Made by a program: the position numbers and the translations under genes | The notes under the pieces: generated by a model | The model's input: the letters and a program-made list of their open reading frames with translations, nothing else | What the model was told of the DNA's origin: nothing | Database searches by the model: none | Source of the DNA: Klebsiella aerogenes KCTC 2190 | Lineage (GTDB): Bacteria > Pseudomonadota > Gammaproteobacteria > Enterobacterales > Enterobacteriaceae | Direction: 5' to 3' | NCBI RefSeq assembly: GCF_000215745.1 | Contig: NC_015663.1 | Coordinates: 2,666,001 to 2,730,000, forward strand | DNA length: 64,000 nucleotides | Part shown: piece by piece, positions 36,484-55,673 of the stretch | Position numbering within the stretch: position 1 is the stretch's first letter | Layout: the number at the start of each line of letters is the position of its first letter

Positions 36484-39144
36484 ATGAAATATCACGAAAA
36501 TAAAAAAAAGTCCGTTAAATTAAACCCGATTGCGGCATCATTATTACTGTTGATGCCTGTAATGGCGCAAGCGGAAATTTCGATTAAAAATGGCAGCGTT
36601 ACTGAAGCCTCCAATGGGGTGCCGGTTGTTAATATCGCGAAAGCGAACAGTAATGGCCTTTCACATAACGTATATGACACGCTGAATGTTGGCACCGAAG
36701 GCGTTATTTTTAATAACGCGACCAGCGCAGCACAGTCCGTGCTGGCAGGGCAGATTGCGGCTAACCCAAATCTTACCGACCGCAGCGCCATGGTTATTCT
36801 TAACGAAGTGACTTCAACGAATGCCAGTACCATTAATGGCATGATGGAAGTTGCAGGTGATTCCGCTCACTTAATCATTGCCAACCCTAATGGCATCACG
36901 ACTCAGGGTGGTGGGTTCATCAATGCTGAAAAAGGGACATTGACGACTGGTACGCCAAAGATAGGTGACGATGGGCTATTAAATGGCTATTCCGTAAATG
37001 GTGGAACGATTACTGTAAATGGATTTCAGAGCGAATCGCCGACCGAAATTCTGGCGCGTAGTATCGTTGTGAAGGGAGCGCTTTCTGCAAGTGAGCTTAA
37101 GATCGTCGCGGGGAGTAATGCGATCAACGCCGACGGTGTGGTCACCGACTCCGTTACGCCAACCGGTAACGCAAGTACCTATGGCGTGGATGTTTCTAAG
37201 CTCGGTGGTATGTATGCGAATAAAATTAGCCTGGTCAGCACCGAAAGTGGCGTAGGTGTACGTAACCTGGGGACGATTTCTGCCGGGGATAGCGGTATTA
37301 AGATTACCAGTAACGGTAAACTGCTTAACAACAACGCGGTTATACAATCCAGTGGCGATATCACCTTAAACACCAATGGTGTTCTGGAAAATAGTGCAGG
37401 AAAAATCAACAGCGATAAAATGATTGCTATTGATACTGCGGGCAATAAAGTAAGTAATATCAATGGTGGTAACATATTAGCAACCACTAACAACTACATT
37501 AATAGCGGTAAGTTCGATAATAGCAATGGGAAACTGGCTGCTGGCCAAACGCTGGCTGTCAATACCAGTGGCAATACTTTTACCAATACTGGTAAAGCTA
37601 AAACCGCGGGTATTGAGGCGGGTATCGTTGCTATCGAATCAGGTAGTTTTGATAATAACAACGGTCAGATTCATGCTGGCTATGTTGGCCTAAAAAATAC
37701 ATCATTAACCAATAATGGCGGTACTATTGATTCAACAGGCAATGTCGAAGTTGAAAGTACTGGAAACATTGAAAACGTAAGTGGCTTGATTCGCTCCAGT
37801 TCTGGTGCTGTAAAATTAACGACAACTAAAGCAGTAAAAAATAATGACAACAAATCGGCCGATACCACGGGCGGTGAATCCTTGGGTATCGTCTCAGGTA
37901 ATGGCATCGAGATTGCTGCTGACTACTTATTCAACTGGGCTGGCGAAATTGCCTCAGATGGTGATGTGAGTATCCAAACCACCAGTGATATTGATAACTA
38001 TATGGGTAAAATTGAAAGCAGTAAGACTGTTTCAATTACTGGTCGCGACATGAATACCAGCCAATCCGGTATTAACGGCGGAGAAGGTGTAAATATCGAT
38101 CTCGATAATTACTACAGTCGATTGGGAGTGATAACTTCAGTAAACGGTGATGTTACTATCAAAGCCAACACCGTTAGCACAGACAGTTCAGTCATTAAAG
38201 CTAAAAATATCAGTATCGAGTCCGGAGCTGATATCGATGCTAAATATACTATGATGGTTGCTGATCAAAAACTAGCGCTTAATGCGGTTGGTAAAATCAC
38301 CAGTACTGACAGTGACAAATTTGGTTTCTACGTGGGGCAATACTTCGGCTACGGGAATCAGCAAGGCGGTCTAATTGGCGGTGAAGGGGTTGATATTACG
38401 GCTAAGAGTCTGAATAACGAATCTGGCCGTATTATTGCGCAAACCGGTGATGTAAATATTAATCTGACTGGCGATCTCGCAAGTAACAAAGGGCAAATTA
38501 TTGCTAATTCCGGAAAAATGACGATTGCTGCGAAAAAAGTTGCTGCTGATTACGCAACAATTTATAGTTCAGGCAATATGCAGATTGATGCAACTACGAT
38601 ATCATCAAAAGCAAGTGGCTCTGTTGCCAAAAATACCGCTACCGGTATCATCTCTTCAGATAGTGATATTTTAATTAATATTACTGGTGACTACAATAAC
38701 ACTGGATGGGTGAATGCAGCAGGCAATCTGACAGTAAATACTTCCGGTTACGTGACAAATAATCACGCCTTTAATGCAGGTGGTGATTTAAATCTGACTG
38801 GCAAAACTATTACTAATAACAGCGATATTGCAGCTGGTAATACACTTAATATCACCACTGCTAATGATTTAACTAATAATCTCGGCGCGAATATTACAGC
38901 TAAGACTACTAATGTCACCGCTAAAAATATCTCGAACTGGTTTAACCTGGTTGCTGATAGTCAGTTAAATGTCACTGCAAGTAATAATATTTACAACTAC
39001 GGTAATTTGTATACCAGCGGTAAGGCTGTTATCAATGCCAAGAAAATAGTCAATACTGGTTTCTGGGCTGTATTAGGTGGCGCTCAAGGACTTGAGACTA
39101 CTGCCAATGTTGTAAATGTATTTGGTACCGTTGTAGGTAAATAA
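36484..39144 (+). CDS. Two-partner secretion exoprotein (TpsA, filamentous haemagglutinin type)
   Basis: 886-residue secreted protein. The ATG at 36484 is chosen because AGAAAGG lies 5 bp upstream and it begins an extended signal peptide (MKYHENKKKSVKLNPIAASL, then LLLLMPVMAQA). An in-frame ATG at 36415 lies in the leader hairpin and is rejected. The TPS domain follows (to about residue 250), with the hallmark NPNGI in IIANPNGITTQGGG. The rest is a beta-helix with many short Asn/Gly/Ser-rich repeats. It is short for the FHA family and ends without a recognisable toxin or adhesin tip. TpsB follows 58 bp later. First gene of the long operon; visibly AT-rich. Confidence 0.9.
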   Translation: MKYHENKKKSVKLNPIAASLLLLMPVMAQAEISIKNGSVTEASNGVPVVNIAKANSNGLSHNVYDTLNVGTEGVIFNNATSAAQSVLAGQIAANPNLTDRSAMVILNEVTSTNASTINGMMEVAGDSAHLIIANPNGITTQGGGFINAEKGTLTTGTPKIGDDGLLNGYSVNGGTITVNGFQSESPTEILARSIVVKGALSASELKIVAGSNAINADGVVTDSVTPTGNASTYGVDVSKLGGMYANKISLVSTESGVGVRNLGTISAGDSGIKITSNGKLLNNNAVIQSSGDITLNTNGVLENSAGKINSDKMIAIDTAGNKVSNINGGNILATTNNYINSGKFDNSNGKLAAGQTLAVNTSGNTFTNTGKAKTAGIEAGIVAIESGSFDNNNGQIHAGYVGLKNTSLTNNGGTIDSTGNVEVESTGNIENVSGLIRSSSGAVKLTTTKAVKNNDNKSADTTGGESLGIVSGNGIEIAADYLFNWAGEIASDGDVSIQTTSDIDNYMGKIESSKTVSITGRDMNTSQSGINGGEGVNIDLDNYYSRLGVITSVNGDVTIKANTVSTDSSVIKAKNISIESGADIDAKYTMMVADQKLALNAVGKITSTDSDKFGFYVGQYFGYGNQQGGLIGGEGVDITAKSLNNESGRIIAQTGDVNINLTGDLASNKGQIIANSGKMTIAAKKVAADYATIYSSGNMQIDATTISSKASGSVAKNTATGIISSDSDILINITGDYNNTGWVNAAGNLTVNTSGYVTNNHAFNAGGDLNLTGKTITNNSDIAAGNTLNITTANDLTNNLGANITAKTTNVTAKNISNWFNLVADSQLNVTASNNIYNYGNLYTSGKAVINAKKIVNTGFWAVLGGAQGLETTANVVNVFGTVVGK

Positions 39145-39202
39145 CTTAGGTTGAAGGTAAAAGCGGTAAGGGATTACTGCTTTTACCTGATTAGGGTATG
39201 AA

Positions 39203-40849
39203 ATGGATATTCGCAATATAGTAATTATTAGCCTGGTATTGTTGATTGCTGGCCCTGCAGTAGCGGCTGATGCTCAGTTAGGGCGGCTTGTAAAAGAGCA
39301 GCAAAACAATGATAACGCTGCTTTCAAAGACCGAAAAATAGAACAAAAGGATGTGTTCTCCGATGCTATCGCAAAAAAAGAAACCGATAGCACATTCCCG
39401 TTGGAAAATCCGTGTTTTCAAATTGATGAATTAGTACTTAGTAATGATTTTTTAGACGACCGCGGATTAAATAAAATAAAAAAACTGGTTGCTGGAAAAT
39501 GCTTAGGAATGAATGGGTTGAAAAAAGCGGCTGTGCTTTTTCAAGATTACTATATAAATGCAGGCTATATAACAACGAGGGTGGAAATTCCATCTCAAGA
39601 TCTCTTGACTAAAAAATTAAAGTTAGCAGTGATACCTGGAAGGATTTCTGAGATTATCATTGTTGATAACGATATAAGTAAGTGGGTTTTGCCATTTTCA
39701 CAAGGTGATATTCTCAATATTAGGGATGTTGAGCAGAGTTTGGAAAATATACAGAGAACACCTGAGGTTGATGTTAAAATTAACATAGTGCCAGGCCCTG
39801 AAAATGGCACGAGCAATCTGGTAATTAATACACAACGAAAAAAAATATGGAGTGCCAGAACTTCGTATAATAACTATGGTGATGACAGCACAGGAAACCA
39901 ACTTATTGGTGGAGTGGGGTATTTATATAATATCACTAGCTTGAGCGATGTTTTTTATCTTGCGGGAACAGGTAGCCAAACCGGGGGTTATAAAAATGCT
40001 AGTGCCTATTATAGTGTGCCTTTTGGTTACACCGATCTCAGTCTTTTTTATAGTAAAAGTAAATCAACTCAGGGTATTGATCTTGGTGCATATACTTTTG
40101 ACTATGTAGGTGAGACGGAATATTTCAGTCTCAAAAGTAATCGTATGCTTTACCGCAATGTGAACTCTAAATTGTCTGCGAGTGCCGAACTGATCAGACG
40201 GAAGTATGACTATACATTGGGAGGCACAGAGCTAGTTTTGCAAAAGCGTGATATGGGCAACATACGGTTAGGCTTAAATTATAAAAGAAACTTTACCGGA
40301 GCTGCGCTGGATTCAACGTTAACCTGGCAGCGGTTTACTAAGGCTTTTGGCGGTACTGATACACCAGACATGCGTACAGGGACCGTTAGTAAGCGAAGTC
40401 AGATTTTGAATCTGAATGTGAACTATGTGAAATGGTTAACTATGTTACCCGTTAACGCCTATTACGAACTGAATATTGGGGCTCAGTATTCACCAGATAA
40501 TTTGACGTTGCAGGATCAATTCACAATAGGCGATCGCTGGAGTGTGCGTGGTTTTCAAAATAGTGATGGTATTTATGGTAATAAAGGGTTCTTCTTACAA
40601 AACACGCTAAATGTGGTTGCTGGATATAATGGTTTCGTCCCCTATATTGGCACGGATTATGGTCAAATAATTGGTAAGCTACCTTCGCAGGATCTTAACG
40701 GTAAGAAAATAATAGGGGGAGTTTTCGGTATAAAAGGGGCTGTTAAAGCGCTGGAATATGATGCTTCATTATCTTCACCCTTTCTATATCCGGATGATCT
40801 GGATGTAGACAGCTATAAGATTAACTTTAATCTTGCTTACCAAATTTAA
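39203..40849 (+). CDS. TpsB outer-membrane transporter (ShlB/FhaC type)
   Basis: 548-residue Omp85-family transporter that should export TpsA. A signal peptide (MDIRNIVIISLVLLIAGPAVA) precedes a linker and POTRA domains at about 70-200, including the Cys-containing ShlB-type POTRA start (NPCFQIDELVLSND) and YYINAGYITTRVEIP. The barrel contains the family VRGF motif in RWSVRGFQNSDG. Order tpsA-tpsB with close spacing supports a cognate pair. Confidence 0.92.
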   Translation: MDIRNIVIISLVLLIAGPAVAADAQLGRLVKEQQNNDNAAFKDRKIEQKDVFSDAIAKKETDSTFPLENPCFQIDELVLSNDFLDDRGLNKIKKLVAGKCLGMNGLKKAAVLFQDYYINAGYITTRVEIPSQDLLTKKLKLAVIPGRISEIIIVDNDISKWVLPFSQGDILNIRDVEQSLENIQRTPEVDVKINIVPGPENGTSNLVINTQRKKIWSARTSYNNYGDDSTGNQLIGGVGYLYNITSLSDVFYLAGTGSQTGGYKNASAYYSVPFGYTDLSLFYSKSKSTQGIDLGAYTFDYVGETEYFSLKSNRMLYRNVNSKLSASAELIRRKYDYTLGGTELVLQKRDMGNIRLGLNYKRNFTGAALDSTLTWQRFTKAFGGTDTPDMRTGTVSKRSQILNLNVNYVKWLTMLPVNAYYELNIGAQYSPDNLTLQDQFTIGDRWSVRGFQNSDGIYGNKGFFLQNTLNVVAGYNGFVPYIGTDYGQIIGKLPSQDLNGKKIIGGVFGIKGAVKALEYDASLSSPFLYPDDLDVDSYKINFNLAYQI

Positions 40850-40867: not shown

Positions 40868-41236
40868 ATGCGTATTGGTACTGATATAGTCGAAGTAGCC
40901 CGGATCGAAAAAGCTATAACCAATGAAAAATCAGGTTTTCTCTCGAGAGTTTTTACAGCTAATGAAATCAGAGATATTGGAATTATTGATTCTAATTATG
41001 AACGTGCGGCAGGTTTTTGGGCGGCGAAGGAGTCTTTGGTAAAAGCTGTTGGTTATGGATTTAGTCATGGCATTTGTTTTCATGATATTGAAGTCACGCA
41101 TGACGAAAATGGAAAACCAGACTTTATAGTGTCAGGCAAGATCAAAGATATACTTAATGAACAATATATTATGAATATTTCACTAAGCATTTCGCATTGT
41201 CGAACTTATGCGATAGCCGCAACCATTCTTTATTAA
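40868..41236 (+). CDS. Holo-ACP synthase-type phosphopantetheinyl transferase
   Basis: 122-residue AcpS-type PPTase that loads 4'-phosphopantetheine on an ACP. Magnesium-site motifs are intact: GTDIVEV at the start and the Glu in GFWAAKESLVKAVG. It differs from the housekeeping AcpS expected elsewhere in the genome and probably serves the ACP at 42581. It lies 18 bp after tpsB. A PPTase (CylK) also belongs to the streptococcal cyl locus. Confidence 0.92.
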   Translation: MRIGTDIVEVARIEKAITNEKSGFLSRVFTANEIRDIGIIDSNYERAAGFWAAKESLVKAVGYGFSHGICFHDIEVTHDENGKPDFIVSGKIKDILNEQYIMNISLSISHCRTYAIAATILY

Positions 41237-41255: not shown

Positions 41256-42011
41256 ATGTATAACTATAACGATCTAATAGGTAAGAAAGTGCTGGTTACT
41301 GGCGCCAGCGGCGACATAGGGCTTGCAATTTGTGGAAAGTTTCTCGAGCAAAAATGTACGGTTTATGCACTGTATAAGACGAATGCCGGGCCATTGCTTA
41401 GTCTGAAAGAAAATCACATCGCTGGTGAACTGCTTCACATCTTACCTTGCGATCTTTCGAAGCAAGACGAAGTTATAGCGCTGTGCGAGCACTTGACCAG
41501 AGAAGCCGGGAGACTGGATGTACTGGTAAATAATACAGGGATTGTTAAAGATAGCCTCTTTGCATCAATGACCTTTGATGATTTTTATTCGGTTATCAAT
41601 ACTAATCTCCTTAGTTTGTTCCGATTGACGAAAGAAGCACTAATGTTATTACGTTCAGCGGAAACACCCGCTGTAATTAATGTTGCGTCTGTGGCTGCTA
41701 TTGTTCCAAGCATCGGACAGGCCAACTATAGTGCATCAAAAGGGGCCATACTAAGCTTTACCCGTACGCTTGCGGCGGAACTGGCGCCACGGGGGGTACG
41801 TGTCAATGCGGTGGCGCCAGGGATGATTGAGTCTAAAATGGCGAAGAAGGTTCCACGCACTGTCGTTCGCGAAGTGACTAACTCTATTCCATTAAAAAGA
41901 CTAGGAAGGTGCGACGAAGTAGCTGATGTCATCGTTTATTTAAGCTCTGCCGCATCAAGCTATATCATTGGGCAAACCATCGTGGTCGATGGTGGCATGG
42001 TAATGCGGTGA
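41256..42011 (+). CDS. 3-oxoacyl-ACP reductase (FabG-like SDR)
   Basis: 251-residue short-chain dehydrogenase. The NADPH motif TGASGDIG is present, NNAG is NNTG here, and the catalytic Ser, Tyr and Lys lie in NVASVAA and YSASKGA. The C-terminus IIGQTIVVDGGMVM is typical of FabG. It should reduce the beta-keto group on ACP-bound chains. It is followed 3 bp later by the dehydratase gene. Confidence 0.93.
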   Translation: MYNYNDLIGKKVLVTGASGDIGLAICGKFLEQKCTVYALYKTNAGPLLSLKENHIAGELLHILPCDLSKQDEVIALCEHLTREAGRLDVLVNNTGIVKDSLFASMTFDDFYSVINTNLLSLFRLTKEALMLLRSAETPAVINVASVAAIVPSIGQANYSASKGAILSFTRTLAAELAPRGVRVNAVAPGMIESKMAKKVPRTVVREVTNSIPLKRLGRCDEVADVIVYLSSAASSYIIGQTIVVDGGMVMR

Positions 42012-42014
42012 TTT

Positions 42015-42584
42015 ATGTCTAAGTATTCAATACCAGCTAAAATTTTTCTTGCCATGGGAGGGTGGCGTCAACCGCTTATCATGGTCGATAAAATAGTTGA
42101 TTACAAATATGGAGAGAGTGGCTTCATTAAAGTTATTAAGCATGTAACTTACAATGACCCCTATCTACTTGGGCATTTTCCAGAAGACCCGATTATGCCT
42201 GGAGCCATTATCTCTGAGATATTTGGTCAGGCAAGTGAATATTATTCATTTCTGACTGACATTTGTGATATTTATCAACAACGCTATGGTGAAAATCTTA
42301 GTTCATTACGTGACCTCTACGCTCTTATCAGACATCCAGATATGCTGAGTACGATACGTACTCGGCGAGCCCAGGTCCGAGGCGTATTAGCTTCACAGAA
42401 TTTAAAATTTAAAGGGACAGCTTACCCCGGAGATACGATTGAAGTAGTAAGCAAACTTTCGTTTTCTGATGATAGTGGTTTTAAGCATTATTCAGTTACA
42501 GCTAACGTAGGGAAAAAGATTATTAGCCAGGGTGTAATTATTAATTTTAGAGAAGTTACTAAATTACAAGGAGAGCAGGCATGA
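42015..42584 (+). CDS. 3-hydroxyacyl-ACP dehydratase (FabA/FabZ-like hot-dog)
   Basis: 189-residue single hot-dog dehydratase. The active-site His is in LGHFPEDPIMPGAIISE and the acidic partner is the Glu in SEIFGQAS. It is longer than housekeeping FabZ because of an insert of about 40 residues after the central helix (ICDIYQQRYGENLSS onward). With no enoyl reductase in the operon, alternate KS-KR-DH cycles would leave conjugated double bonds. It overlaps the ACP gene by 4 bp. Confidence 0.9.
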   Translation: MSKYSIPAKIFLAMGGWRQPLIMVDKIVDYKYGESGFIKVIKHVTYNDPYLLGHFPEDPIMPGAIISEIFGQASEYYSFLTDICDIYQQRYGENLSSLRDLYALIRHPDMLSTIRTRRAQVRGVLASQNLKFKGTAYPGDTIEVVSKLSFSDDSGFKHYSVTANVGKKIISQGVIINFREVTKLQGEQA

Positions 42585-42862
42585 CCAATATCAATGACGA
42601 AATCGAAAAAAGAAAAAATATAATTGTTAAAATTAAAGCCGAGATTATCCAGCGTCTGAATGTTCAGCGTGAACCTCATCAAATTGATGATGATACGCCA
42701 TTGTTTGGAAACGGTTTGAAACTGGATTCTGTTGATGCAACAGAGATTATCGTTATGCTTGATAAAATCTTCGATATTCAGGTTTCTGAGGGTGATGATC
42801 CATCTTATATGCGAAGTGTAAATAATCTGGCATCTTTTATTTTAAAGAAGAAGTCTTTCTAA
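42581..42862 (+). CDS. Acyl carrier protein
   Basis: 93-residue ACP. The phosphopantetheine-attachment Ser is about residue 50 in GLKLDSVDATEI, within the usual helix II start. The preceding DDDTPLFGNG loop is typical of dedicated secondary-metabolite ACPs. The only carrier protein visible in the operon. ATGA overlap with the dehydratase gene implies translational coupling. Confidence 0.93.
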   Translation: MTNINDEIEKRKNIIVKIKAEIIQRLNVQREPHQIDDDTPLFGNGLKLDSVDATEIIVMLDKIFDIQVSEGDDPSYMRSVNNLASFILKKKSF

Positions 42863-42891: not shown

Positions 42892-44061
42892 ATGAAATTA
42901 CTTTCTGAACTTCACCTGCAAAATAATGCGCTAATGGGCATTTATAATGATAAATGCGTGCCTTCTTCATATCATGATATTTTTGAAGAGTATAAGGCCG
43001 TACGCGAAAATGTTTTGCTTGTTGATTATTCCCATATGTCAATTACCAGCGTGATGGGTGATGATGCATGGGCGCTAGTGAACTACATGGCTTCAGCAGA
43101 TGTATCAATTATCCGTGATGAGCAGGGTATTTATTCTCTAGTACTTAACGTTGATGGAACCATCCGCGGTGAAGTTTATATTCTTTGTGCTGAAGAAGGC
43201 TATTATATTTTGTCAGAGGATATGACTTCTAAGGAAATTATAAACATTCTAAATGAAGTTCTCCTTAAGGCCGAAGAGCTAGATATACAGGATATTCCAG
43301 AAATCAAATCGATGGACGGAGAAGATTGGGGGATTGTTATGCTGGAAGGCCCCTATGCCTGGGAAATAATGGCGGAAGCTTATGGTTTTGATATCATCGG
43401 TCTGCCTTATTACGAATATATGAATACCGATGATGGTTTAATGGTATTTCGCTGCGGTAAACATGGTGAGTTTGCATATCAATTAATCGGTTCTCAAGCA
43501 GTCCTGGTTACAATGTGGATGAGGCTACAAGAAATAGGATCAAAATATTTACTAAAAACGGGTGGTTTAGATTATCAAGGGCTGGTGAGGATTGAGAATC
43601 CAGGATGGGATGAAAGCCTTTATTCTAGTTACTCACGTAATCCAGTGGAATTGCAAATGCAGTGGGCGATTCAATACGATAAAGAGGATTTTATCGGTAA
43701 GAGCGCAGTCGAAGAGTTATCCCTTAAGAGTGCTGAACGTAAACTTGTTGGAATTATACCGGATGAAGGGTGTGGCCATATCGATTCTGATGACCTTGTG
43801 ATGGTAAATGGGCATCAGGTTGGTGTCATTGTTAACGCCGTATATTCTCCAGCGAAGCAAAACTGGATTGCGTTGGCACTTATTGATGAATGCTATGCGT
43901 TAGCGGATATTACTGGATTTAGTATTGTAACTACAAACGGAGAATTTGCTGCTAAAACGCAAAGTGTTCCATTTATTTATAATCGTAGTTTATTAATTAA
44001 CCCAACAACTCATAGCTATGTTGATGCTTCGAAGGCTAAGAGCGCGCTTGAAACGTATTAA
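42892..44061 (+). CDS. GcvT-like aminomethyltransferase (CylF-like)
   Basis: 389-residue protein of the glycine-cleavage T protein/YgfZ fold. N-terminal half: DYSHMSITSVMGDDAW, a variant of the family start, and SLVLNVDGTIRGEVYIL. In true GcvT this segment carries an Ile-Asp-Asp with the catalytic Asp; here it reads Arg-Gly-Glu, so the chemistry may differ. C-terminal half: GLDYQGLVRIE, DFIGKSAVEEL and the Gly-rich barrel end. No gcvH or gcvP is nearby, so glycine cleavage is unlikely. The streptococcal cyl locus has the same odd partner (CylF) beside its fatty-acid enzymes. Confidence 0.85.
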   Translation: MKLLSELHLQNNALMGIYNDKCVPSSYHDIFEEYKAVRENVLLVDYSHMSITSVMGDDAWALVNYMASADVSIIRDEQGIYSLVLNVDGTIRGEVYILCAEEGYYILSEDMTSKEIINILNEVLLKAEELDIQDIPEIKSMDGEDWGIVMLEGPYAWEIMAEAYGFDIIGLPYYEYMNTDDGLMVFRCGKHGEFAYQLIGSQAVLVTMWMRLQEIGSKYLLKTGGLDYQGLVRIENPGWDESLYSSYSRNPVELQMQWAIQYDKEDFIGKSAVEELSLKSAERKLVGIIPDEGCGHIDSDDLVMVNGHQVGVIVNAVYSPAKQNWIALALIDECYALADITGFSIVTTNGEFAAKTQSVPFIYNRSLLINPTTHSYVDASKAKSALETY

Positions 44062-46699: not shown

Positions 46700-47932
46700 G
46701 TGAACGAAAGAGCAATTATTTCTGGTTTCAGTGTTTGTTTGCCTTATGCAGAGAATAGTTCGCTGCTAATTGAAAGTTTAAAGCAGGGAAAATGCGTGAA
46801 CTTATCTCCATGGTTTGCATCAGATAACCAAGCTATAGAATGTGGGTTCTCTGGCAATATAAATATTGCAAAACTAAAGCAGAATAATGATAGCGCTCTT
46901 GACCATTTGTATAGACTTATCGATGAAGCCTTACTTCAGGCTGGTCTCAATGATGACTGCCTGAAAGGCGACAGGGTCAGAGTGTACATTACTGGGATCG
47001 GTCCTCGTGTCGATGTCATGGATTATAGAAATTTCTATAATTATAATGATATGGAGGATGTGTCGGTAACATCCTCAATTAAAAATCTGGCTGTGAAAAA
47101 TATGTCTCAGGATAGCTTTTCTTACAATCTGGCGAAGAAATATGAATTAAGTTACCTTCCGCCGAATATGAACTGCACAAGTAACTCGTCGCTAACAGCT
47201 ATCCATCTGGCCACCAGAGCAATTGAAAAAAATGGTATTGATCTTGCACTGATTATCAATATCTCAAAAATTAAATATCAAGATCTGGGGTTTCTTGCGA
47301 GCCAGGGAATGCTGGATAGTGAGATTGTTCAACCCTTTGGTGTGAATAGCAATGGTGTGCTTTTTGCTGAGGGTTATGGTGTTATGCTGCTGGAAAACCA
47401 ACGACATCGATTAGGGCGAGGGAAAAGTCCAGGAATAAGCATTTACTCGGCTTATAAACAAATTAATGCTGGTCGTAGTAATGATGCCTACTGGCAAAGT
47501 GCCAGCATTCTAAAATTAATAAATTCACTGCTGAATGATTCGGGTGTGCAAAAAGAAGAACTTTGTGCATTTATACCTCACGGTAATGGCACCTCATCAA
47601 GTGATAATGTTGAAGCAAAAGCTATCGCTATATTTACAAGTGAAATGACTCTTCCAGTACTGGCCTATAAGGGACAAATCGGTTATACCGCAACCGGTTC
47701 AGGATTGATAGATATAGTAATTGGTTATCACTCTTTGAAAAACGGTGAGTTAATTTTCCCTGTTGTTAATGATGACATCATAAATGATGTCTCGCGCCAT
47801 ATACCGACAGAGGGCAGGGTAAGCAGACATGACAAGAAACATTTATTAAAGACTGGGTTGGGTGTAGATGGTTCCGTCATTGCACTCTTAATGACTAATT
47901 TAAATACCAACACTGGCTACGAGGGAGAGTGA
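46700..47932 (+). CDS. Degenerate ketosynthase (second CLF-like protein)
   Basis: 410-residue thiolase-fold protein. GTG start at 46700 preceded by AAAGGATAG. KAS landmarks are recognisable but altered. The nucleophile region reads MNCTSNSSLTAIHLA, with the Cys two positions off the normal ACSSS site. HGNGTSSSDNVE keeps the first His. The second His region is YKGQIGYTATGSG, with Tyr in place of His. It is therefore probably a non-catalytic partner or a starter/priming-type enzyme. It directly follows the KS-CLF gene and precedes the unknown gene by 1 bp. Confidence 0.82.
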   Translation: MNERAIISGFSVCLPYAENSSLLIESLKQGKCVNLSPWFASDNQAIECGFSGNINIAKLKQNNDSALDHLYRLIDEALLQAGLNDDCLKGDRVRVYITGIGPRVDVMDYRNFYNYNDMEDVSVTSSIKNLAVKNMSQDSFSYNLAKKYELSYLPPNMNCTSNSSLTAIHLATRAIEKNGIDLALIINISKIKYQDLGFLASQGMLDSEIVQPFGVNSNGVLFAEGYGVMLLENQRHRLGRGKSPGISIYSAYKQINAGRSNDAYWQSASILKLINSLLNDSGVQKEELCAFIPHGNGTSSSDNVEAKAIAIFTSEMTLPVLAYKGQIGYTATGSGLIDIVIGYHSLKNGELIFPVVNDDIINDVSRHIPTEGRVSRHDKKHLLKTGLGVDGSVIALLMTNLNTNTGYEGE

Positions 47933-47933: not shown

Positions 47934-48887
47934 ATGTATCTGTCATCATATTCTTTCCTTGAACCGGAAGAACCATTTTATTTATATTATCCAAGCTGGC
48001 TAAATGTTTGGGAATCACACTCCTACAATACAGCATTGAAGGCAACTGGAGCTAATGGTTGGAGGTTCAAACGCTTTGGAACAAGAAATGATGTATACAC
48101 GCGCGAGATTACAAGACGACCAGATCATATACCTTATATAAATGCTCTTGATAAGGTATCAGATGCCGCTTTACACAGCTTGTCAGCAAAAGAACGGATG
48201 TTATTACTTAAATCGCGAACCGCATTTATCTATATCGATTCATGGGGAGAGTCAGGCGTGTTTGAATACAATATCAGTAGCCTTAATTTATCCACTATTG
48301 ATACTTTACCAAAGAGTCTGATCAAAAAATTTTCCATCAATGATGTAACCTGCAAAATTCGCGGTGAAAATAGTTCACTCTTTCAGGCTATGGCAATGGC
48401 TCAAGATTATCTCGGCTGGGATGTTTTTGATTTTGTCGTTATCTGTGGTGGATACCGAGCTGTACCATTGTTAGCTTTCACTGCAGAAAGTATGAAACAA
48501 CGTAAAGAAAAAAAGAAATATCATCATATTCCTGGTGTGAATTTATCTATCGAACGGGTAGGTTGCTTTGTTTTTAGTAAAAGAGAAGGTGGTTTCAAAG
48601 TACACTGCAGCCCATACACATATGCTGATGTAAATGAAATTAGTCTGCCGGGTCATAAAAATATCAATGATATTGACTGCATTGCCTATGCCGGAGGTAT
48701 AAATAAATCCATAACAGCCTCTGAGAACGTGATAGATCTTATCGCTCGCTACGGTTGCAGCGGATGTGTGACACCGGCGTTAACTTGGCAATATATTAAC
48801 CAGTACGCATTACATAATGGTTGTATCAGAACCGTTATTCCGGGAGTAGCTAGCGGCTATGCCTACTTTGATACCTGGTACCAATAG
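47934..48887 (+). CDS. Unknown 317-residue protein of the lipid operon
   Basis: I do not recognise this protein with confidence. It has no signal peptide or membrane helix. A segment around residues 150-185 (AQDYLGWDVFDFVVICGGYR, then AVPLLAF) and the glycine-rich end (TVIPGVASGYAYFDTW) are faintly reminiscent of the thiolase/ketosynthase fold, but no catalytic Cys/His set is evident. Four Cys cluster around SGCVTP and upstream. It follows the degenerate ketosynthase by 1 bp, so it may partner it. It occupies the place where a chain-release or acyl-transfer enzyme might be expected, but that is a guess. Confidence 0.7.
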   Translation: MYLSSYSFLEPEEPFYLYYPSWLNVWESHSYNTALKATGANGWRFKRFGTRNDVYTREITRRPDHIPYINALDKVSDAALHSLSAKERMLLLKSRTAFIYIDSWGESGVFEYNISSLNLSTIDTLPKSLIKKFSINDVTCKIRGENSSLFQAMAMAQDYLGWDVFDFVVICGGYRAVPLLAFTAESMKQRKEKKKYHHIPGVNLSIERVGCFVFSKREGGFKVHCSPYTYADVNEISLPGHKNINDIDCIAYAGGINKSITASENVIDLIARYGCSGCVTPALTWQYINQYALHNGCIRTVIPGVASGYAYFDTWYQ

Positions 48888-48895: not shown

Positions 48896-49603
48896 ATGCG
48901 CAGCAATATAACAGAACTACCGGATATTTCGTTATCTGGAATATATAAGACCTATGGTTGTCTGGACAATATAACTTATGCTTTAAACAATATTAATCTG
49001 GACGTTGTGAAAGGCGAGTTTCTTGTATTGTGTGGGCCTTCCGGTAGCGGAAAGAGTACTTTGCTAAATATACTTTCTGGTATTGATATGCCAACTTCAG
49101 GCCATGTCTTCTTTCTGCATAAAAATCTCAATGTGTTGTCTGAAAAAAATCTTGCACACCTTCGCAGTCGACATCTAGGTTTCATTTTTCAATTTTTTAA
49201 TTTAATACCGGTGCTTAGTGTTTTTGATAATGTTTATTATCCCCTGACGCTGAATGGTCATTTTAATGCGAAAGAGGCCCGAGAGCGAACGCTGCATTTC
49301 CTCGATAGTGTTGGTTTATCCCACTTATTGGCTAGAAAACCTGGCCAGTTGTCAGGTGGTCAACAGCAAAGGGTCGCTATTGCAAGGGCACTAGCGCATA
49401 GCCCTGAAGTTATTGTTGCTGACGAACCTACCGGTAACTTGGATCTGGCTACCGGTGAATCGATTTTGGACCTCCTGGTTGAGATTAATCAGCGAACGAA
49501 AACAACTTTTATTATCTCAACCCATTCGACTCAACTTAAAGATCGCGCAAGACGGAGCGTGGAAATTAAGGATGGAGCAATAATTTATGATTCAGCGAAG
49601 TAA
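48896..49603 (+). CDS. ABC transporter ATP-binding protein (LolD/MacB type)
   Basis: 235-residue ATPase. Walker A GPSGSGKST, Q-loop in LGFIFQFFNLIPVL, signature LSGGQQQRVAIARAL, Walker B VIVADEPTGNLD and H-loop ISTHS are all intact. The spacing and the PTSGHVFF and NLIPVLSVFDNVYYPL segments place it in the LolD/MacB/FtsE group, which powers mechanotransmission rather than classical import. The partner permease is at 50238. Confidence 0.93.
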   Translation: MRSNITELPDISLSGIYKTYGCLDNITYALNNINLDVVKGEFLVLCGPSGSGKSTLLNILSGIDMPTSGHVFFLHKNLNVLSEKNLAHLRSRHLGFIFQFFNLIPVLSVFDNVYYPLTLNGHFNAKEARERTLHFLDSVGLSHLLARKPGQLSGGQQQRVAIARALAHSPEVIVADEPTGNLDLATGESILDLLVEINQRTKTTFIISTHSTQLKDRARRSVEIKDGAIIYDSAK

Positions 49604-50237
49604 TCTTTTTAAAATTCTCCTCCTGTGTCTGACCATGTTTACATTTGCAGTATTTGCTGAGATGGGATCAACTCCTGCGACCTCCCGTGTCTTACAGAAC
49701 GGATTTCCTGGTGAGCCAGAAGCTTTAGCATCTATCACTGCTGATTTATTTAAAGAATATGAACATACTAACAACGTCGGCGCGCTGATCTTTTACTCAT
49801 GGGGAATGTTGCGACAGGCTAACTATTATCAGAGCGTTAATGATCTAATTAACGCTTCTGAATACGCGAAGACTGGATTCTTTTATCTGGATGAATCAGT
49901 AGATGCTAATGAAGATAACATGCTAATTCGATATTTGCGTGCAAGAGTGGATGCCTGGCTTCCCGTGGAATTAGGTCGCTGCGTGATTACAATCGAAGAT
50001 ACTGATTTACTTCTTGAAAATAAAGAAAAATTTAGCGGTGAGGTTATTAATAATATAATTACAATGCGTTTGCGAGCACTGCATAATTGCCATCGCAAAC
50101 AGCAAGAAAAGCAACTCACTGAGCATCTTCGCAGAATCAATCAGCAGCGTGAAATTGATTTTGAAAGTAACCAGTCGCCGGTTTGGGAAATGGCTGAAGT
50201 CATGCAGGTTATCGTTCCTGTTATTAAGGGTGATTAA
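49587..50237 (+). CDS. Unknown periplasmic protein between ABC subunits
   Basis: 216 residues; not recognised. The N-terminus (NLFKILLLCLTMFTFAVFAE) looks like a signal peptide or anchor. The remainder is helical, with paired-helix, TPR-like character (ALIFYSWGMLRQANYY, INASEYAKTGFFYL), and two Cys (GRCVITIED, LHNCHRKQ) that could form a disulfide. It overlaps the ATPase gene by 17 bp and abuts the permease gene, so it is probably an accessory subunit of this exporter. Confidence 0.75.
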   Translation: MIQRSNLFKILLLCLTMFTFAVFAEMGSTPATSRVLQNGFPGEPEALASITADLFKEYEHTNNVGALIFYSWGMLRQANYYQSVNDLINASEYAKTGFFYLDESVDANEDNMLIRYLRARVDAWLPVELGRCVITIEDTDLLLENKEKFSGEVINNIITMRLRALHNCHRKQQEKQLTEHLRRINQQREIDFESNQSPVWEMAEVMQVIVPVIKGD

Positions 50238-51548
50238 ATGTCAAAGGATATGATATTTTTTAATTCTATTCTGGTTTTAATATTGATGTTTGTTATTTAT
50301 AATGTCATCTTTAATTTTGGCGATGCAAAATTCTCATTTTTGAACTTGCTACGACATCGGCGGAGAACAATATCTACTCTTTCTGCCATCATTTTAGGTG
50401 GTTGCGCAATATTTTTGTATGGTGGTTTTATCAACTACTCTTTTTGGATACTCAAAGAACAAACGATACGTACCAACATTGGTCATGTGCAAATTTATAA
50501 CAGGACCTATTTTGAAACCGCTAACAAAAATAAGAGCCTGATCTCTGATTATGCTACGTTAAAAAATAAAATTTTACATAACGCCGATTTTTCTAATGAG
50601 ATTTCAACAATAGCTGGCCAGCTTGAATTTACCGGAATAATTTCACACTACGAAAGTGAAACGTCAAATTATTTTTCAGCACAAGGCGTAGAACCTTTAC
50701 CAGCCCTGAAGTTAGGGGCATTTGATAAGATAGTTTTTGGTAGCGATTTATCTCGCGTAAAACACAATGAAGTTACTATTGGCAGTGGTCTGGCAAAAAC
50801 ACTAGATAGCCACTATGGTGACTGGCTTGATGTCATGGCGGTTAATATAGCCGGAGGGCAGGGGGCTATCTCTGTCAAACTACGCGGCGTCTTTGAATCA
50901 GGAATAAAGGATTATGACGATGTTGTTATAAAAATGCCTCTTGAGACTGCGCAGCGAATTATGGGGACTGATGGTGTTAGTAAGATAGTCATCTTGCTAA
51001 ACAACGATGATGTAACATCTTTTGTTAAGAAAATGAGAGAGTATATAGCAGACCAGCATTTGCCTCTGATCGTTAAGGACTGGAAGGAGAACTCTATTTT
51101 TTACCAGCAGGTGGAGGGCATGCTGTCGGGGATCTATTTTTTTATTAAACTTATTGTGGCGCTAATCGTGGTTTTCATGATCGGTAATTCAATGACGATG
51201 AATATTGTTGAACGAACCCGGGAAATTACTACACTTCGCGCAATTGGTTTACAATCAAGTCGTGTTACGCGTTTATTCTGGATGGAAGGCATATATATTG
51301 GTATCTTTGGCGCATTGGGGAGTCTTTTCTTTGGTTTCACTATTGCTGCCATAATTAATATTTCTGGTATTGCGATGCCACCTTCGCCGGGCCAATCAGT
51401 AGGCTACACCGCATTTATTAAAACAAATGATGTTGAATTGATCTGGGTAACCATGATATTACCAATTTTAACATCAGTCGTGGCTTCCATTATTCCCGCA
51501 TACCGTGCATCGCGCCTTAACATCACTGATGCATTCAAATTTTCATAG
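50238..51548 (+). CDS. ABC permease of LolC/E-MacB (FtsX-like) family
   Basis: 436-residue permease with a large periplasmic domain. A first hydrophobic segment (about 8-27) precedes the family's usual first helix (about 45-65, after FLNLLRHRRRTISTLSA), so there is one helix more than in typical LolE. The periplasmic domain spans about 70-295. Three C-terminal helices contain NIVERTREITTLRAIGLQ and IIPAYRASRLNITDAF, the hallmark ends of FtsX-like permeases. With the LolD-like ATPase and LolA-like protein it suggests extraction of a lipid-like product from the inner membrane. Confidence 0.9.
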   Translation: MSKDMIFFNSILVLILMFVIYNVIFNFGDAKFSFLNLLRHRRRTISTLSAIILGGCAIFLYGGFINYSFWILKEQTIRTNIGHVQIYNRTYFETANKNKSLISDYATLKNKILHNADFSNEISTIAGQLEFTGIISHYESETSNYFSAQGVEPLPALKLGAFDKIVFGSDLSRVKHNEVTIGSGLAKTLDSHYGDWLDVMAVNIAGGQGAISVKLRGVFESGIKDYDDVVIKMPLETAQRIMGTDGVSKIVILLNNDDVTSFVKKMREYIADQHLPLIVKDWKENSIFYQQVEGMLSGIYFFIKLIVALIVVFMIGNSMTMNIVERTREITTLRAIGLQSSRVTRLFWMEGIYIGIFGALGSLFFGFTIAAIINISGIAMPPSPGQSVGYTAFIKTNDVELIWVTMILPILTSVVASIIPAYRASRLNITDAFKFS

Positions 51549-51556: not shown

Positions 51557-52345
51557 ATGAAAACCAGTGTATTGTATTTATTTATCATAGCTATATATTT
51601 GCATTCTGTCCCGGTGCAGGCTACGAGTAATAGCCTGCAAGCTCTGAATATAATTCGGAGAGCTGATGATGTTCGCTCACCAAATGAGCCTTTTCGCTAT
51701 AACGTGACTGTACTTGAGTATAAAGAGGGTGGCAAAGTGCCTGAAAACATGCAGTCGCTAGATATATCGATGCGCTTTATTAAACCAGAAAACGGTTTGA
51801 AAGCTGATGCTCGTTCACTTATCCGTTTTACCTATCCTCCGCGAGATAAAGGCAAGATCATGTTATCTGATTGGTATGACTTATGGTTTTATACGCCAGA
51901 ATTACGCAGGCCTATTCCTATTTCGCGCTCACAACGATTAATCGGTCAGATCTCTAATGGCGATGTTATAGTGACGAACTTCGAGTATGCTTATGATTCG
52001 ACCCTGGAAGGGGAAGAGCCTTGTGGAGATAAAATTTGCTATCGACTGTCTCTCACTCGGAAATCTGAGGCCGTTACTTATCCTAAAGTGATTTACCTGG
52101 TGGAAAAAAATGCGGAATATCGGCCATTTAAAGCATCATATTATTCTCTTGATAATCAACTTCTCAAAAGTGTCTTGTATAAAAACTATCAGATAGTATT
52201 AGGGAAGAATCGTCCAACAGAGATTATTGTGCAGAATGCTCGCTATGAAAAAGGTTATTCTGTCATGAAGTATAGTGATGTTCGCCTTGAATCGTTGCCT
52301 GAATTCCACTTCACTAAAGAGTTTATTCAGCGAGGCGCGAAGTGA
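51557..52345 (+). CDS. LolA-like outer-membrane lipid/lipoprotein-sorting protein
   Basis: 262-residue secreted protein with a signal peptide (MKTSVLYLFIIAIYLHSVPV, then QA). The beta-rich body resembles the 'outer membrane lipoprotein-sorting protein' group (COG2834-like): MRFIKPENGLKADARSLIRF, PPRDKGKIMLSDWYDLWFY, SYYSLDNQLLKSVLYKNY. This fold carries hydrophobic cargo across the periplasm. Placed between permease and barrel genes; the stop overlaps the next start by 4 bp. Confidence 0.85.
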   Translation: MKTSVLYLFIIAIYLHSVPVQATSNSLQALNIIRRADDVRSPNEPFRYNVTVLEYKEGGKVPENMQSLDISMRFIKPENGLKADARSLIRFTYPPRDKGKIMLSDWYDLWFYTPELRRPIPISRSQRLIGQISNGDVIVTNFEYAYDSTLEGEEPCGDKICYRLSLTRKSEAVTYPKVIYLVEKNAEYRPFKASYYSLDNQLLKSVLYKNYQIVLGKNRPTEIIVQNARYEKGYSVMKYSDVRLESLPEFHFTKEFIQRGAK

Positions 52346-53730
52346 AGGGCCATCTGGGTACATTGCTATTTGCTTTGTCACTAACACCATTATGGGGAAT
52401 GGCTAATTGTCTGTCAGGTGACCAAATACGCTCGAATGGCCAGATTATTTTGAACGCGCAGGCATCTTTTGCGCACAAAAGTGACTCCATTTGGCGCATC
52501 AATGGCGCTAATCCATACACGGCCGATAACGCGTATAATGATATTTCTATTAATCTTTCAAGCGCTTGTTCCTTCATTGAGGATGTGCTGGGATTAGATT
52601 TTTCATTATATAGTTTAGGATATTATGCGATAAAAGAAGTAGGATTATTCGAACAGGATGATCATCGCGCAAAAATATTAATTGATCGGCTCAAGATTAA
52701 CTGGTCGTTGTCTGATAGCATAAGTTTTGAAGGTGGAAAAATAAATTCATTTCCAGGTGCCTTTCATTTAAAATCACCAGCATCACTGTTGACTTCCTAT
52801 TATGCCGGATTTAAACCGACACGAATATACGATCCGAAGCTGGAGTCCGCCTATAGCGAGTCGTATTGGGGGGGGCGGTTAGCCAAAGAATTTCGTGATT
52901 ATGCATTCTCGCTTACTGTTATACCCAAATTAGCAAGTATCGATAAATATTATGAATCATCCAGTAACTGGACAGCCAATCAAAGGGCTAACAGCAGTGA
53001 ATACTATTTATTAAGTTATACCGATTATCGGCTTGTTAACCATCGGCTAGCAGCGAATATAATGCTTGGCGACTCTCCTTCATTGGCACTATCTGATGGC
53101 TATAATTTAACTCCTCAGTTTGTTGTCAACGTAGAAGCGGCTTTGCACAAAACGCAACAGTGGCGTCACTTTTCTGTTGAAAAACGGAACGAGGTGCTTT
53201 CTGGGCTATATCCTTCATCGCTATATGCGCAGAATGACAAAAAAGGTTATGAATTAGCCGTTGGTGGGCAATACACCACTGACTTTTTTAGTGTGTTTGG
53301 CATTGAGTACTACTATCAAAGCGAAGGCTACTCAAAATCGGCATGGCGAGAGCAGGCTGATTTTATTAGGCTATTAAGTAAAAAAACCGGTTATTCCAGC
53401 TTAGACCAAGTATTAGATGATTATAAGTATCTGATGGGTTCAGAAATAAGTAATACAGGAAATAAAGGTATGCTGCAGGGGCGGCATTACATTACTTCAT
53501 GGTTAAGTTTACAGAGTATAGATCATTCAACTTTTCAGCCTTATTTAGTGGTGAACTTAGTCGATGGTAGCTCCTTAATCGGGGCCCATTTTGTCCAGCC
53601 ATTAAAAGGGGTGAGCGAACAGGCTGAGACTTATACGGGGTTGTATAGCGCATTAGGTAGTCGTGATTCTGAGTTCGCACTTTTTGGCGAGACTCTCGGA
53701 GTTTACGTTGGATTTAAATATTATTTATAA
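52342..53730 (+). CDS. Probable outer-membrane beta-barrel protein
   Basis: 462 residues. A signal-like N-terminus (GTLLFALSLTPLWGMA) precedes alternating amphipathic strands throughout. It has many aromatic belts (YYLLSYTDYRLVNHRLA, GGQYTTDFFSVFGIEYYYQ) and ends YVGFKYYL, a barrel-like terminal strand with Leu instead of Phe. I cannot name a family. By context it may be the outer-membrane receptor or channel of the Lol-like export route. Confidence 0.72.
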   Translation: MKGHLGTLLFALSLTPLWGMANCLSGDQIRSNGQIILNAQASFAHKSDSIWRINGANPYTADNAYNDISINLSSACSFIEDVLGLDFSLYSLGYYAIKEVGLFEQDDHRAKILIDRLKINWSLSDSISFEGGKINSFPGAFHLKSPASLLTSYYAGFKPTRIYDPKLESAYSESYWGGRLAKEFRDYAFSLTVIPKLASIDKYYESSSNWTANQRANSSEYYLLSYTDYRLVNHRLAANIMLGDSPSLALSDGYNLTPQFVVNVEAALHKTQQWRHFSVEKRNEVLSGLYPSSLYAQNDKKGYELAVGGQYTTDFFSVFGIEYYYQSEGYSKSAWREQADFIRLLSKKTGYSSLDQVLDDYKYLMGSEISNTGNKGMLQGRHYITSWLSLQSIDHSTFQPYLVVNLVDGSSLIGAHFVQPLKGVSEQAETYTGLYSALGSRDSEFALFGETLGVYVGFKYYL

Positions 53731-53743: not shown

Positions 53744-54673
53744 ATGATAAAGCTATCAGACCAGCCAACGGTGCTTATTTTTGCCGGTCAGGGAAATCCT
53801 GCCGTCGGAATGGGAGCTGATTTATGGGATTTGAATACAACGACGAGACAAATCTGGGACTGCGCCAGCGATGTGACAGGGTTAGATCTTCGTCGGTTGT
53901 GTCAGAAGGGACCGATGAATCGTCTGGTGAAAACGACGACGCAGCAGTCGGCGGTGACAGCTATCAATATCACTCTCTATAGTTTGTATGCCGAGCGATT
54001 CGCTGACGCTAACGTTGTTGGTTCGTGCGGCCATAGCGTTGGTGAATATAGCGCACTTTATGCGGCCGGCGCCTTAACGCTGGAAAATGTGTTCAAGCTA
54101 ATATTGGCGCGCTCTACTATCATGGGCGATTTAAGCAATATTCATAAAGGCGCGATGCTAGCCGTGAGAGGTGCCGATTTTCAAACGGTAAGTCAGTTGA
54201 TTATCGACTCCGGAAGCCCGGTCGTGGTGAGTTGTGATAATAGTCCCTCTCAGCAGGTGATTGGCGGTACGCTACCAGATTTAAGTGAATTCTCTGGGGT
54301 TCTGATGGGGGCTGGTCTGGATGCTGTCAAGCTAGGTGTTAGCGGAGCCTGGCATACGCCTCTTATGTCTGAGGGGATTCAGCCCATGCGGGATGTGCTC
54401 AAGACGGTGGAGATTGTACGGCCAAATTATCCTGTACTGATGAATGTCACTGGACGGGAAGAATATAATCCGGAGAAAATTAAAGAGAACTTATCTTTGC
54501 ATTTGACCCATAGAGTACGGTGGAGCGCATCGATAGCCGCCTTTTTACAACATATCCCCTCCGTCAGGTTTGTTGAAATCAGTAACAAGGTGTATCTTGG
54601 GCATCTGCTAAATGATTTCGACGGTTTCTCTGTAGAATATTTTACACATTGTCGAAAAATGTTGGCGGCGTAA
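53744..54673 (+). CDS. Malonyl-CoA:ACP transacylase (FabD-like)
   Basis: 309-residue acyltransferase supplying malonyl units. The ATG at 53744 (MIKLSDQPTVLIFAGQGNPA) is chosen because AAGGA lies 10 bp upstream; the upstream in-frame ATG at 53663 is within the barrel gene. Active-site motifs: GQGNPAVGMG oxyanion loop, nucleophile Ser in GHSVGEYSA, catalytic His in GAWHTPLM. Equivalent to CylD of the streptococcal locus. Confidence 0.92.
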   Translation: MIKLSDQPTVLIFAGQGNPAVGMGADLWDLNTTTRQIWDCASDVTGLDLRRLCQKGPMNRLVKTTTQQSAVTAINITLYSLYAERFADANVVGSCGHSVGEYSALYAAGALTLENVFKLILARSTIMGDLSNIHKGAMLAVRGADFQTVSQLIIDSGSPVVVSCDNSPSQQVIGGTLPDLSEFSGVLMGAGLDAVKLGVSGAWHTPLMSEGIQPMRDVLKTVEIVRPNYPVLMNVTGREEYNPEKIKENLSLHLTHRVRWSASIAAFLQHIPSVRFVEISNKVYLGHLLNDFDGFSVEYFTHCRKMLAA

Positions 54674-54683
54674 CGAGGGTATC

Positions 54684-55673
54684 ATGATTCCGGATTATTT
54701 AACGTTTATTCGTCGTCAGGATCGGTCGCTTTTACCGTATTTGTACTTTCTTACTACATTACTAATTGCATTTTACGTCAAAAACAGAGGGTATCTGTTA
54801 ACCGTAGAGGATGCCTTTCCAGTAAGTGCCATCTTTTCGTTAACTATGTTCAGCTTTGTTTATGAGTTAAAGGGATATTGGGCATATAAATATGCGATAA
54901 GGAATATCAATTTTTCTTGGTTGCAGGGGAAAAGCTATTCGCGATTTGAGATAATACTGTGGCAGCCGCTTGTCGCTACAACGTGCTGTTTACTGAGTTG
55001 CTATCTGGTTGTTACAGGATTTCTACTCTTTTTTTCAACCATTGTAGCCATGTTCTGTATTGCTATTTTTGTGCCAATGATAATCTATATAATGTGTTGG
55101 ATGGCGAGAAATTGTTACGTCAAGCAGTTGCAGCAGGCAACTATCTATACGCTTAAATATCGTAATCTCCATCACTATACCTGCTTGAACGTTACCGTGA
55201 CTGTCTTGACCAGTTTTGCGGTTATCAGTCCGCTGATTGCAGATGATGATTTTTCCTTAGCCGATGGTTTTTTTTCACCTCGCTTGATGGTGGCTATGCT
55301 GATCCTATGTTCATTAATCCTGCTGGTTAATCTGTCTTTCGCTCACCCTTCCAGGCGTTATACCTTTTTAGGTAGACTTTTGCAAAAAGAGTTTGATGTA
55401 AACCTTGTCAATACGATGATACTTCCTGGGATAAATAGCAAACCTTTGTGGCTTAGATTGGTTATTTTCTTCACCCTTCAGGTTTTCTGGATTGTGACTG
55501 TTAGTCTGTTGTTGAAACTTTTAGGGTGGGAAATATATTTTTATGCATATTTTATTTTATGTATGATACCTGCGATAGGATACTTTTACTTGCATGTCTA
55601 TTGGAAGTGGCATGAAGATTACATGACTGCCTGTGATATGTATCTCAGATGTGGTGAAAATAATAAAAATTAG
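54684..55673 (+). CDS. Unknown polytopic membrane protein
   Basis: 329 residues with about seven to eight hydrophobic segments, e.g. near 17-32, 100-145 in two or three spans, 175-190, 205-225, 265-290 and 290-315. It is not recognised. There is no ATPase motif or obvious catalytic pair. The pattern of spans separated by a basic cytoplasmic loop (MARNCYVKQLQQATIY) vaguely resembles ABC-2-type permeases or small lipid-modifying membrane enzymes. Last gene of the operon, ending 16 bp before a strong terminator. Confidence 0.75.
   Translation: MIPDYLTFIRRQDRSLLPYLYFLTTLLIAFYVKNRGYLLTVEDAFPVSAIFSLTMFSFVYELKGYWAYKYAIRNINFSWLQGKSYSRFEIILWQPLVATTCCLLSCYLVVTGFLLFFSTIVAMFCIAIFVPMIIYIMCWMARNCYVKQLQQATIYTLKYRNLHHYTCLNVTVTVLTSFAVISPLIADDDFSLADGFFSPRLMVAMLILCSLILLVNLSFAHPSRRYTFLGRLLQKEFDVNLVNTMILPGINSKPLWLRLVIFFTLQVFWIVTVSLLLKLLGWEIYFYAYFILCMIPAIGYFYLHVYWKWHEDYMTACDMYLRCGENNKN

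Follow-up and report, generated by a model that had tools for sequence, protein, structure and literature searches.

Within a window of 64,000 nucleotides from Klebsiella aerogenes KCTC 2190 (NC_015663.1, positions 2,666,001 to 2,730,000; coordinates below are those of this window), we analyzed an operon of 17 genes, all on the plus strand, that occupies positions 36484..55673 (~19 kb) and is flanked by yajQ and yajR. The operon combines fatty acid-type biosynthetic genes with export genes and a two-partner secretion (TPS) gene pair. We observed the same gene order in E. coli, Enterobacter, Rahnella, Klebsiella, and others, and it is therefore not due to chance; the operon is a conserved Enterobacterales module, real and widespread. 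Sequence comparison indicates that its biosynthetic part is a relative of the core of the cyl operons, whose product is granadaene, an ornithine rhamno-polyene and the hemolytic pigment of Streptococcus; this would extend the cyl-type core beyond Gram-positive bacteria. On balance, we favor the interpretation that the operon encodes a Gram-negative acyl-chain factory, built on this cyl-related core and equipped with dedicated envelope export, which would produce a polyene-type lipid beside a TPS exoprotein.

Layout of the operon

The original prediction, made from the sequence alone, had described a co-oriented operon of 19 kb with mostly short gaps between its genes. This description was correct: 17/17 genes are on the plus strand, Pfam supports the families assigned to them, and 13 of the 16 gene junctions overlap or are shorter than 30 bp, the other three being 58, 74, and 113 bp (with the start of FabD taken as 53744). 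The GC content was 38-47% in 2-kb windows across the operon island versus 51-59% over window positions 1-34000. Near-identical operon proteins, in the same yajR-side setting, were found in K. aerogenes NCTC10006 (L025). The genes and the hairpin that follows them are as follows (KS, ketosynthase; CLF, chain-length factor; ORF, open reading frame; SDR, short-chain dehydrogenase/reductase; ABC, ATP-binding cassette).

36484..39144, plus strand: TpsA, two-partner secreted filamentous protein (Pfam TPS 3.5e-37; signal peptide by eye; no toxin domain in the Pfam scan; ORF as listed starts at 36415)
39203..40849, plus strand: TpsB outer-membrane transporter (Pfam ShlB 1.8e-66, POTRA domains)
40868..41236, plus strand: AcpS-type phosphopantetheinyl transferase (Pfam ACPS 6.1e-18; NCBIfam acpS)
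41256..42011, plus strand: FabG-type ketoreductase (Pfam SDR match)
42015..42584, plus strand: FabZ-like dehydratase (Pfam FabA 2.8e-15)
42581..42862, plus strand: acyl carrier protein (ACP; Pfam PP-binding 9.5e-7)
42892..44061, plus strand: GcvT-like protein, CylF relative (Pfam GCV_T 3.4e-28)
44136..46586, plus strand: KS-CLF fusion (Pfam double KS; frame broken near the C terminus in the window strain)
46700..47932, plus strand: KS2, degenerate KS-like protein (Pfam ketoacyl-synt 2.2e-11)
47934..48887, plus strand: KSx, compact KS-fold protein, 317 aa
48896..49603, plus strand: ABC ATPase, LolD-like (Pfam ABC_tran 7.6e-35)
49587..50237, plus strand: U216, 216 aa (signal peptide by eye; conserved place between the ABC and FtsX genes)
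50238..51548, plus strand: FtsX/MacB-type permease, LolCE-like (Pfam FtsX 2.9e-15, MacB_PCD 4.6e-10)
51557..52345, plus strand: LolA-like periplasmic carrier (Pfam LolA_like 1.1e-35; closest solved chain 3buu, 1.1e-39)
52342..53730, plus strand: presumed outer-membrane barrel, 462 aa (by eye; conserved place after the LolA-like gene)
53744..54673, plus strand: FabD-type malonyl transferase (Pfam Acyl_transf_1 9.5e-27; listed ORF starts at 53663)
54684..55673, plus strand: YcdU, polytopic helical membrane protein, 329 aa (E. coli YcdU orthologue, ~40% identity)
55685..55722, no strand given: terminator-like hairpin with a 17-pair stem, directly after the last gene, ending the operon

Relation to the cyl operons

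As yardsticks, we used the cyl-type operons of Lactococcus allomyrinae (L163) and Lactiplantibacillus plantarum (L146), both of which lie on plasmids of insect-gut bacteria. The L. allomyrinae operon encodes FabG, ACP, FabZ, an ABC permease, a GNAT-annotated protein at the place of CylE, an aminomethyltransferase, KS, CLF, and a "cylJ protein." The L. plantarum operon has the same gene order as far as the KS gene, and its 666-aa protein matched the L. allomyrinae counterpart at 26.5% (2e-37). Profiles of the window operon families, built from 34-42 rows each (TpsA, 9; TpsB, 24), were compared with these proteins using hmmsearch. Matches to the L. allomyrinae cyl proteins (E-values for a set of 11 proteins) were obtained for FabG (2.2e-67), KS (9.2e-59), GcvT (2.6e-24), FabZ (1.4e-22), ACP (1.1e-20), FabD (6.8e-12), and CLF (8.9e-10). 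The ABC ATPase profile matched the ABC ATPase of L. plantarum (2.6e-30); that of L. allomyrinae is absent from the annotation listed and so lies outside the comparison. A cluster on Priestia megaterium plasmid pBM500 (L144) likewise shares the phosphopantetheinyl transferase, FabD, FabG, ACP, FabZ, GcvT-like, and KS-CLF fusion genes but carries a thioesterase and a major facilitator superfamily transporter and no annotated KS2, LolA-like, or TPS gene. In the window operon, in both cyl-type operons, and in Priestia, the GcvT-like gene stands immediately ahead of the KS gene.

The GcvT-like protein had been proposed to be CylF-like, and phylogeny agreed. The operon, Priestia, and cyl proteins (13 rows) were split at 99/99 support from seven housekeeping or other GcvT rows, and the operon protein thus fell together with the L. 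allomyrinae protein at the CylF position, albeit on long branches. The first Asp of the DD motif is lost in all 13 of these rows, but it is also lost in a Phaeobacter row. In the KS tree, where branches were also long, the operon KSs formed a 100/100 clade of their own, and the approximately unbiased (AU) test gave p 0.179 for a clade with the cyl-like KSs. The predicted likeness to cyl therefore stands for the FabD, FabG, ACP, FabZ, GcvT-like, and KS-CLF matches to true cyl operons, but the KS tree adds no resolved affinity.

Other parts of the two systems do not correspond. The KSx, YcdU, U216, FtsX, LolA-like, barrel, TpsA, TpsB, and phosphopantetheinyl transferase profiles matched none of the L. 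allomyrinae proteins. Conversely, the CylE-place proteins of L. plantarum and L. allomyrinae were unmatched by the operon families (in hmmsearch, and in hhalign above 15% and 10%), and L. allomyrinae CylJ was matched by none of them. The permease is of the ABC-2 type in cyl operons and of the FtsX/MacB type in the window operon, which goes beyond cyl in having KS2, KSx, the LolA-like protein, the presumed barrel, YcdU, and the TPS pair. FabD, FabG, ACP, FabZ, a CylF-type GcvT directly before the KS, and ABC export are shared. Judged by these profile comparisons, the operon is a relative of the cyl core and not a cyl operon, because CylE and CylJ have no counterpart, as the original prediction had foreseen. 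A survey that covers firmicutes, actinobacteria, and Thermosporothrix describes CylE and CylF as belonging to all cyl operons, and the term "Gram-negative" occurs 0 times in its main text (PMC6985545).

Active sites, KS2, and KSx

We then considered the residues required for catalysis. Tyr158 and Lys162 of FabG, His54 and Glu68 of the FabZ-like dehydratase, Ser50 of ACP, and Ser125 and His231 of FabD (listed-ORF numbering) are each kept in 39/39 aligned rows, and Cys162, His294, Lys325, and His330 of KS-CLF are kept in 40/40. In accordance with the original prediction, Pfam identified no enoyl reductase among the 17 genes.

KS2 differs from these enzymes in its active site: Ser occupies the aligned nucleophile position in 42/42 rows, while one His is retained and the second His is replaced by Tyr in 41 of the 42 rows, with one gap each. 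The original prediction had also listed proteins of no recognizable family. The Pfam scan indeed returned zero matches for four operon proteins (317, 216, 462, and 329 aa), but the 317-aa protein, KSx, turned out to be KS-folded; judged by eye, Cys is absent from its nucleophile place. The predicted model of YcdU (329 aa) reached a pLDDT of 89.8, and fold comparison gave no match for it. New here are the invariant Ser of KS2 at the aligned nucleophile position, the KS fold of KSx, and the three operon architectures described below. KS2 and KSx may be an acyl-transfer pair standing in for CylE.

Export genes and TpsA

The ABC ATPase, the FtsX-type permease, and the LolA-type carrier, all Pfam-matched, make up a LolCDE-like set, which by analogy would move a lipid to the outer membrane. 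The prediction that the locus has its own outer-membrane delivery is supported by the presence of LolA-like, ABC, and TPS genes inside the operon. In the 462-aa family, presumed from its sequence to be an outer-membrane barrel and without any Pfam match, Cys23 and Cys76 are invariant in 29 rows. Among 41 aligned rows of the ABC ATPase, 35 have an intact Walker A, 5 from Proteus/Providencia have an altered one, and 1 has a gap. The ATPases without Walker A (L024, L129, L131, L132, and L135) still have an open reading frame, and their loci keep TpsA without TpsB where the upstream side is covered. For the ABC gene of Morganella, the sole match was to its own degenerate form.

As in other two-partner secretion systems, a TPS-domain exoprotein (TpsA) is encoded beside a ShlB/FhaC-type transporter (TpsB). 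The pair differs from those systems in lying inside a putative lipid operon, and the Morganellaceae relatives are without TpsB in the stretches covered. Upstream TpsA copies in related loci measure 834-1292 aa, and in two loci of the TPS-bearing architecture (L063 and L105, from G1049 and G1155) two tandem TpsA-like ORFs precede TpsB within the first 7 kb. Of the mechanism proposed below, the step assigned to TpsA is the most uncertain.

Distribution, architectures, and integrity

The KSx marker (A3) was detected in 24/295 genomes of the family, 4/295 of the order, 1/369 of the class (the genome of the window only), and 2/299 of the phylum. The samples share some genomes, and the genome of the window is one of the hits in every count. 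In a collection of named species, 37 loci were confirmed from 74 pattern matches, including Klebsiella, Enterobacter, Leclercia, Kosakonia, Pantoea, Mixta, Rahnella, Serratia, Erwinia, Providencia, Proteus, Morganella, and one Acinetobacter sp. These loci fall into three architectures.

Type A (20/37 named loci, plus the contig-cut L116 and L123) has TpsA-TpsB directly upstream of the biosynthetic and export genes and no enoyl reductase. TpsA is truncated by the locus edge in the named type A loci, and its complete copies come from a 26-genome set that overlaps them and comprises 14 type A, 11 type B, and 1 type C operons. Type B (10/37) is without TPS upstream and carries an extra SDR gene between the FtsX and LolA-like genes; three of the 10 loci, all from Erwinia, have TpsA downstream. 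Type C is that of the Morganellaceae (4/37, plus the contig-cut L135), with TpsA present, a degenerate ABC ATPase, and no match for TpsB, LolA-like, or barrel proteins in the stretches covered. Some type B loci (L086:1035-1832 and relatives) encode an additional exported-looking protein of ~250 aa between KSx and the ABC genes, which had no Pfam family in the two copies scanned. A type B operon is also present in Serratia microhaemolytica (L130), whose species name hints at hemolysis. Outside the Enterobacterales, a type A operon was found in Acinetobacter sp. ANC 4558 (L122), which suggests transfer.

Among complete E. coli genomes, 366/5426 carry at least 80% of the operon at one place and 2652/5426 carry some part of it. 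Six of the 40 E. coli rows listed have the whole operon, 33 (including K-12 MG1655) only the ycdU/FabD end, and 1 a 92-base scrap. The E. coli insertion is near a tRNA-Ser gene and ghrA. The yajQ-yajR site is common to three Klebsiella-genus genomes (G000, G009, and G016), and these are the 3/20 genomes of the genus in which YcdU is present. The operon is plasmid-borne in Enterobacter bugandensis and Rahnella sikkimica; in the latter, the plasmid region upstream of the operon contains a gene for a tyrosine-type DNA invertase (L022:8474-9025).

The window KS-CLF ORF has 816 aa versus ~852 aa in relatives and is thus ~36 residues short. Within 46540-46692, its frame breaks at a short A run, and the homologous C-terminal stretch resumes in another frame. 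NCTC10006 shifts frame at the identical place, in an assembly with many frame breaks; a genuine loss, slippage, and a sequencing error could each account for the break. On the R. sikkimica plasmid, KS-CLF lies in two frames (L022:17232-19630) without an annotated coding sequence. TpsA is frameshifted in E. coli RM14516, the operon is broken into pieces in G1073, and an ORF interrupts it in G016. All genes from TpsB to YcdU nevertheless reach at least 90% of family length in 16/20 named type A loci; one of the remaining four is cut by a contig end, and short genes occur in L121, L126, L127, and L137. Full-length examples are Mixta theicola QC88-366 (L117), whose genome (G1140) encodes a TpsA of 887 aa, and Kosakonia sacchari SP1 (L125), where the locus edge truncates TpsA. 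The ratio of nonsynonymous to synonymous substitution rates (dN/dS) between E. coli alleles was 0 to 0.29 for 16 genes (two allele pairs, one ratio undefined, TpsA left out).

A candidate pathway and its alternatives

In the pathway that we propose, the AcpS-type enzyme would arm ACP, FabD would load malonate, and the KS-CLF fusion would elongate the chain iteratively, with FabG reducing and the FabZ-like enzyme dehydrating each unit. Because the operon has no enoyl reductase, the double bonds would stay, yielding a polyene-type acyl-ACP. KS2 and KSx, perhaps together with the GcvT-like protein and YcdU, would pass the chain to a head group, replacing CylE. At the inner membrane, an ABC/FtsX/U216 complex would extract the lipid, which the LolA-like protein would ferry through the periplasm and the presumed barrel would take over at the outer membrane; TpsA would be a partner exoprotein on the same surface.

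Several points weigh against this pathway. The KS phylogeny gives no resolved cyl affinity, the AU test leaving a clade with the cyl-like KSs neither rejected nor demonstrated, and the operon phosphopantetheinyl transferase had no match to the protein that follows CylJ in L. allomyrinae or to the neighbors of that protein. Housekeeping FabI could supply the reduction step in trans. A polyene need not be the product of every member, because type B relatives have a FabL-like SDR. The Morganellaceae lack some export parts and have others in degenerate form, and with KS-CLF broken in the window and in R. sikkimica, some carriers may be without product. Overall, the gene content, its conservation, the active-site residues, the grouping of the GcvT-like protein with CylF, and the KS fold of KSx are established here, and the product class, the sequence of steps, the head-group transfer, the export route, and the role of TpsA are inferred.

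It is possible, although we rather doubt it, that the product is a partly reduced or hydroxylated specialized fatty acid or similar tail rather than a conjugated polyene, with reduction by FabI in trans or, in type B relatives, by their SDR. The extra SDR is present in 10/10 named type B loci, and FabL was the top NCBIfam model for one representative (176.7 bits, below the cutoff of 328). However, neither Y-x3-K nor Y-x6-K is found in 11/11 of these sequences, so the protein may not be an active reductase. Moreover, the stretches covered of type A and C loci gave no match to the SDR, the window operon has no such gene, and the core of the operon has relatives among cyl-type polyene producers.

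The polyene-lipid interpretation can be carried further, to a new envelope lipid system in which KS2/KSx would hand the polyene to TpsA or to a TpsA-displayed surface lipid. One operon would then make, export, and present its product, and cyl would share the ancestral core, release and export having evolved independently. We regard this extension as speculative and improbable as a whole. Slightly less credible still is the notion that the lipid pathway serves TpsA, with an acyl chain attached to or bound by it to give a lipid-bearing surface adhesin or carrier. Types A and C keep the linkage to TpsA, as do the three Erwinia loci with a downstream TpsA, even without TpsB in the stretch covered; type C also is without LolA-like and barrel genes, and KS2 keeps its invariant Ser and its His. 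On the other hand, in 7/10 named type B loci the genes for biosynthesis and export occur with no TpsA match within the 20 kb covered. Finally, a decaying genomic island, functionless today in most hosts, would fit the KS-CLF and TpsA frame breaks, the K-12 remnant described below, and the fragmented, interrupted, or short copies, but this is very unlikely given catalytic residues invariant in 39-42 rows, the low dN/dS, and the 16/20 type A loci that are full-length from TpsB to YcdU.

The operon as O-island 47 and its relation to other systems

By gene content and position, rather than by EDL933 coordinates, the operon corresponds to that of E. coli O157 O-island 47. Orthologues stand in the same order for 17/17 genes in L023 and in L026, and the full annotated set is present in O157 SS52 (L027). 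The shared features are the 17-gene order, the orthologous proteins, ycdU as the last gene, and the adjoining integrase of the following island; the insertion site is not that of the window operon. The 2001 EDL933 genome paper reportedly described a polyketide or fatty-acid system. A published list labels O-island 47 "adhesin and fatty-acid biosynthesis" and places a fimbrial cluster there too (PMC5567499), an entry that the original statement on the lack of a described hybrid overlooks. The "adhesin" of this label may be the fimbrial genes. Other papers give O-island 47 as z1528-z1556 and name GrvA as the gene studied in it (PMC8565820), report from one screen that type III secretion increased when the island was deleted (PMC3378721), and place ycdU directly upstream of O-island 48 (PMC3064760), in agreement with the arrangement in O157 SS52. 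No product for the operon was found in open PubMed Central texts; the comparison with cyl thus offers a chemical prediction for an island in print for years. The ymdE-ycdU pair, described as mastitis associated (PMC4951805), looks in K-12 like a remnant of the last two genes of the operon, which would explain both genes.

Aryl polyene clusters, as outlined in PMC8253772, share with the operon type II KS genes, a dehydratase, a reductase, a LolA-like carrier, and a putative outer-membrane destination, and the LolA-like part of the operon resembles the export proposed there. The operon differs in its LolCDE-like ABC set, and Pfam found none of the aryl polyene features resistance-nodulation-division exporter, DUF3261 protein, and acyl-ACP synthetase among its 17 genes. 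If its product were a surface polyene, it would be a second envelope polyene family in the Enterobacterales beside the aryl polyenes. Two more KS genes, possibly of an aryl polyene cluster, lie at G000:C1:1162548-1166123 in the same genome as the window.

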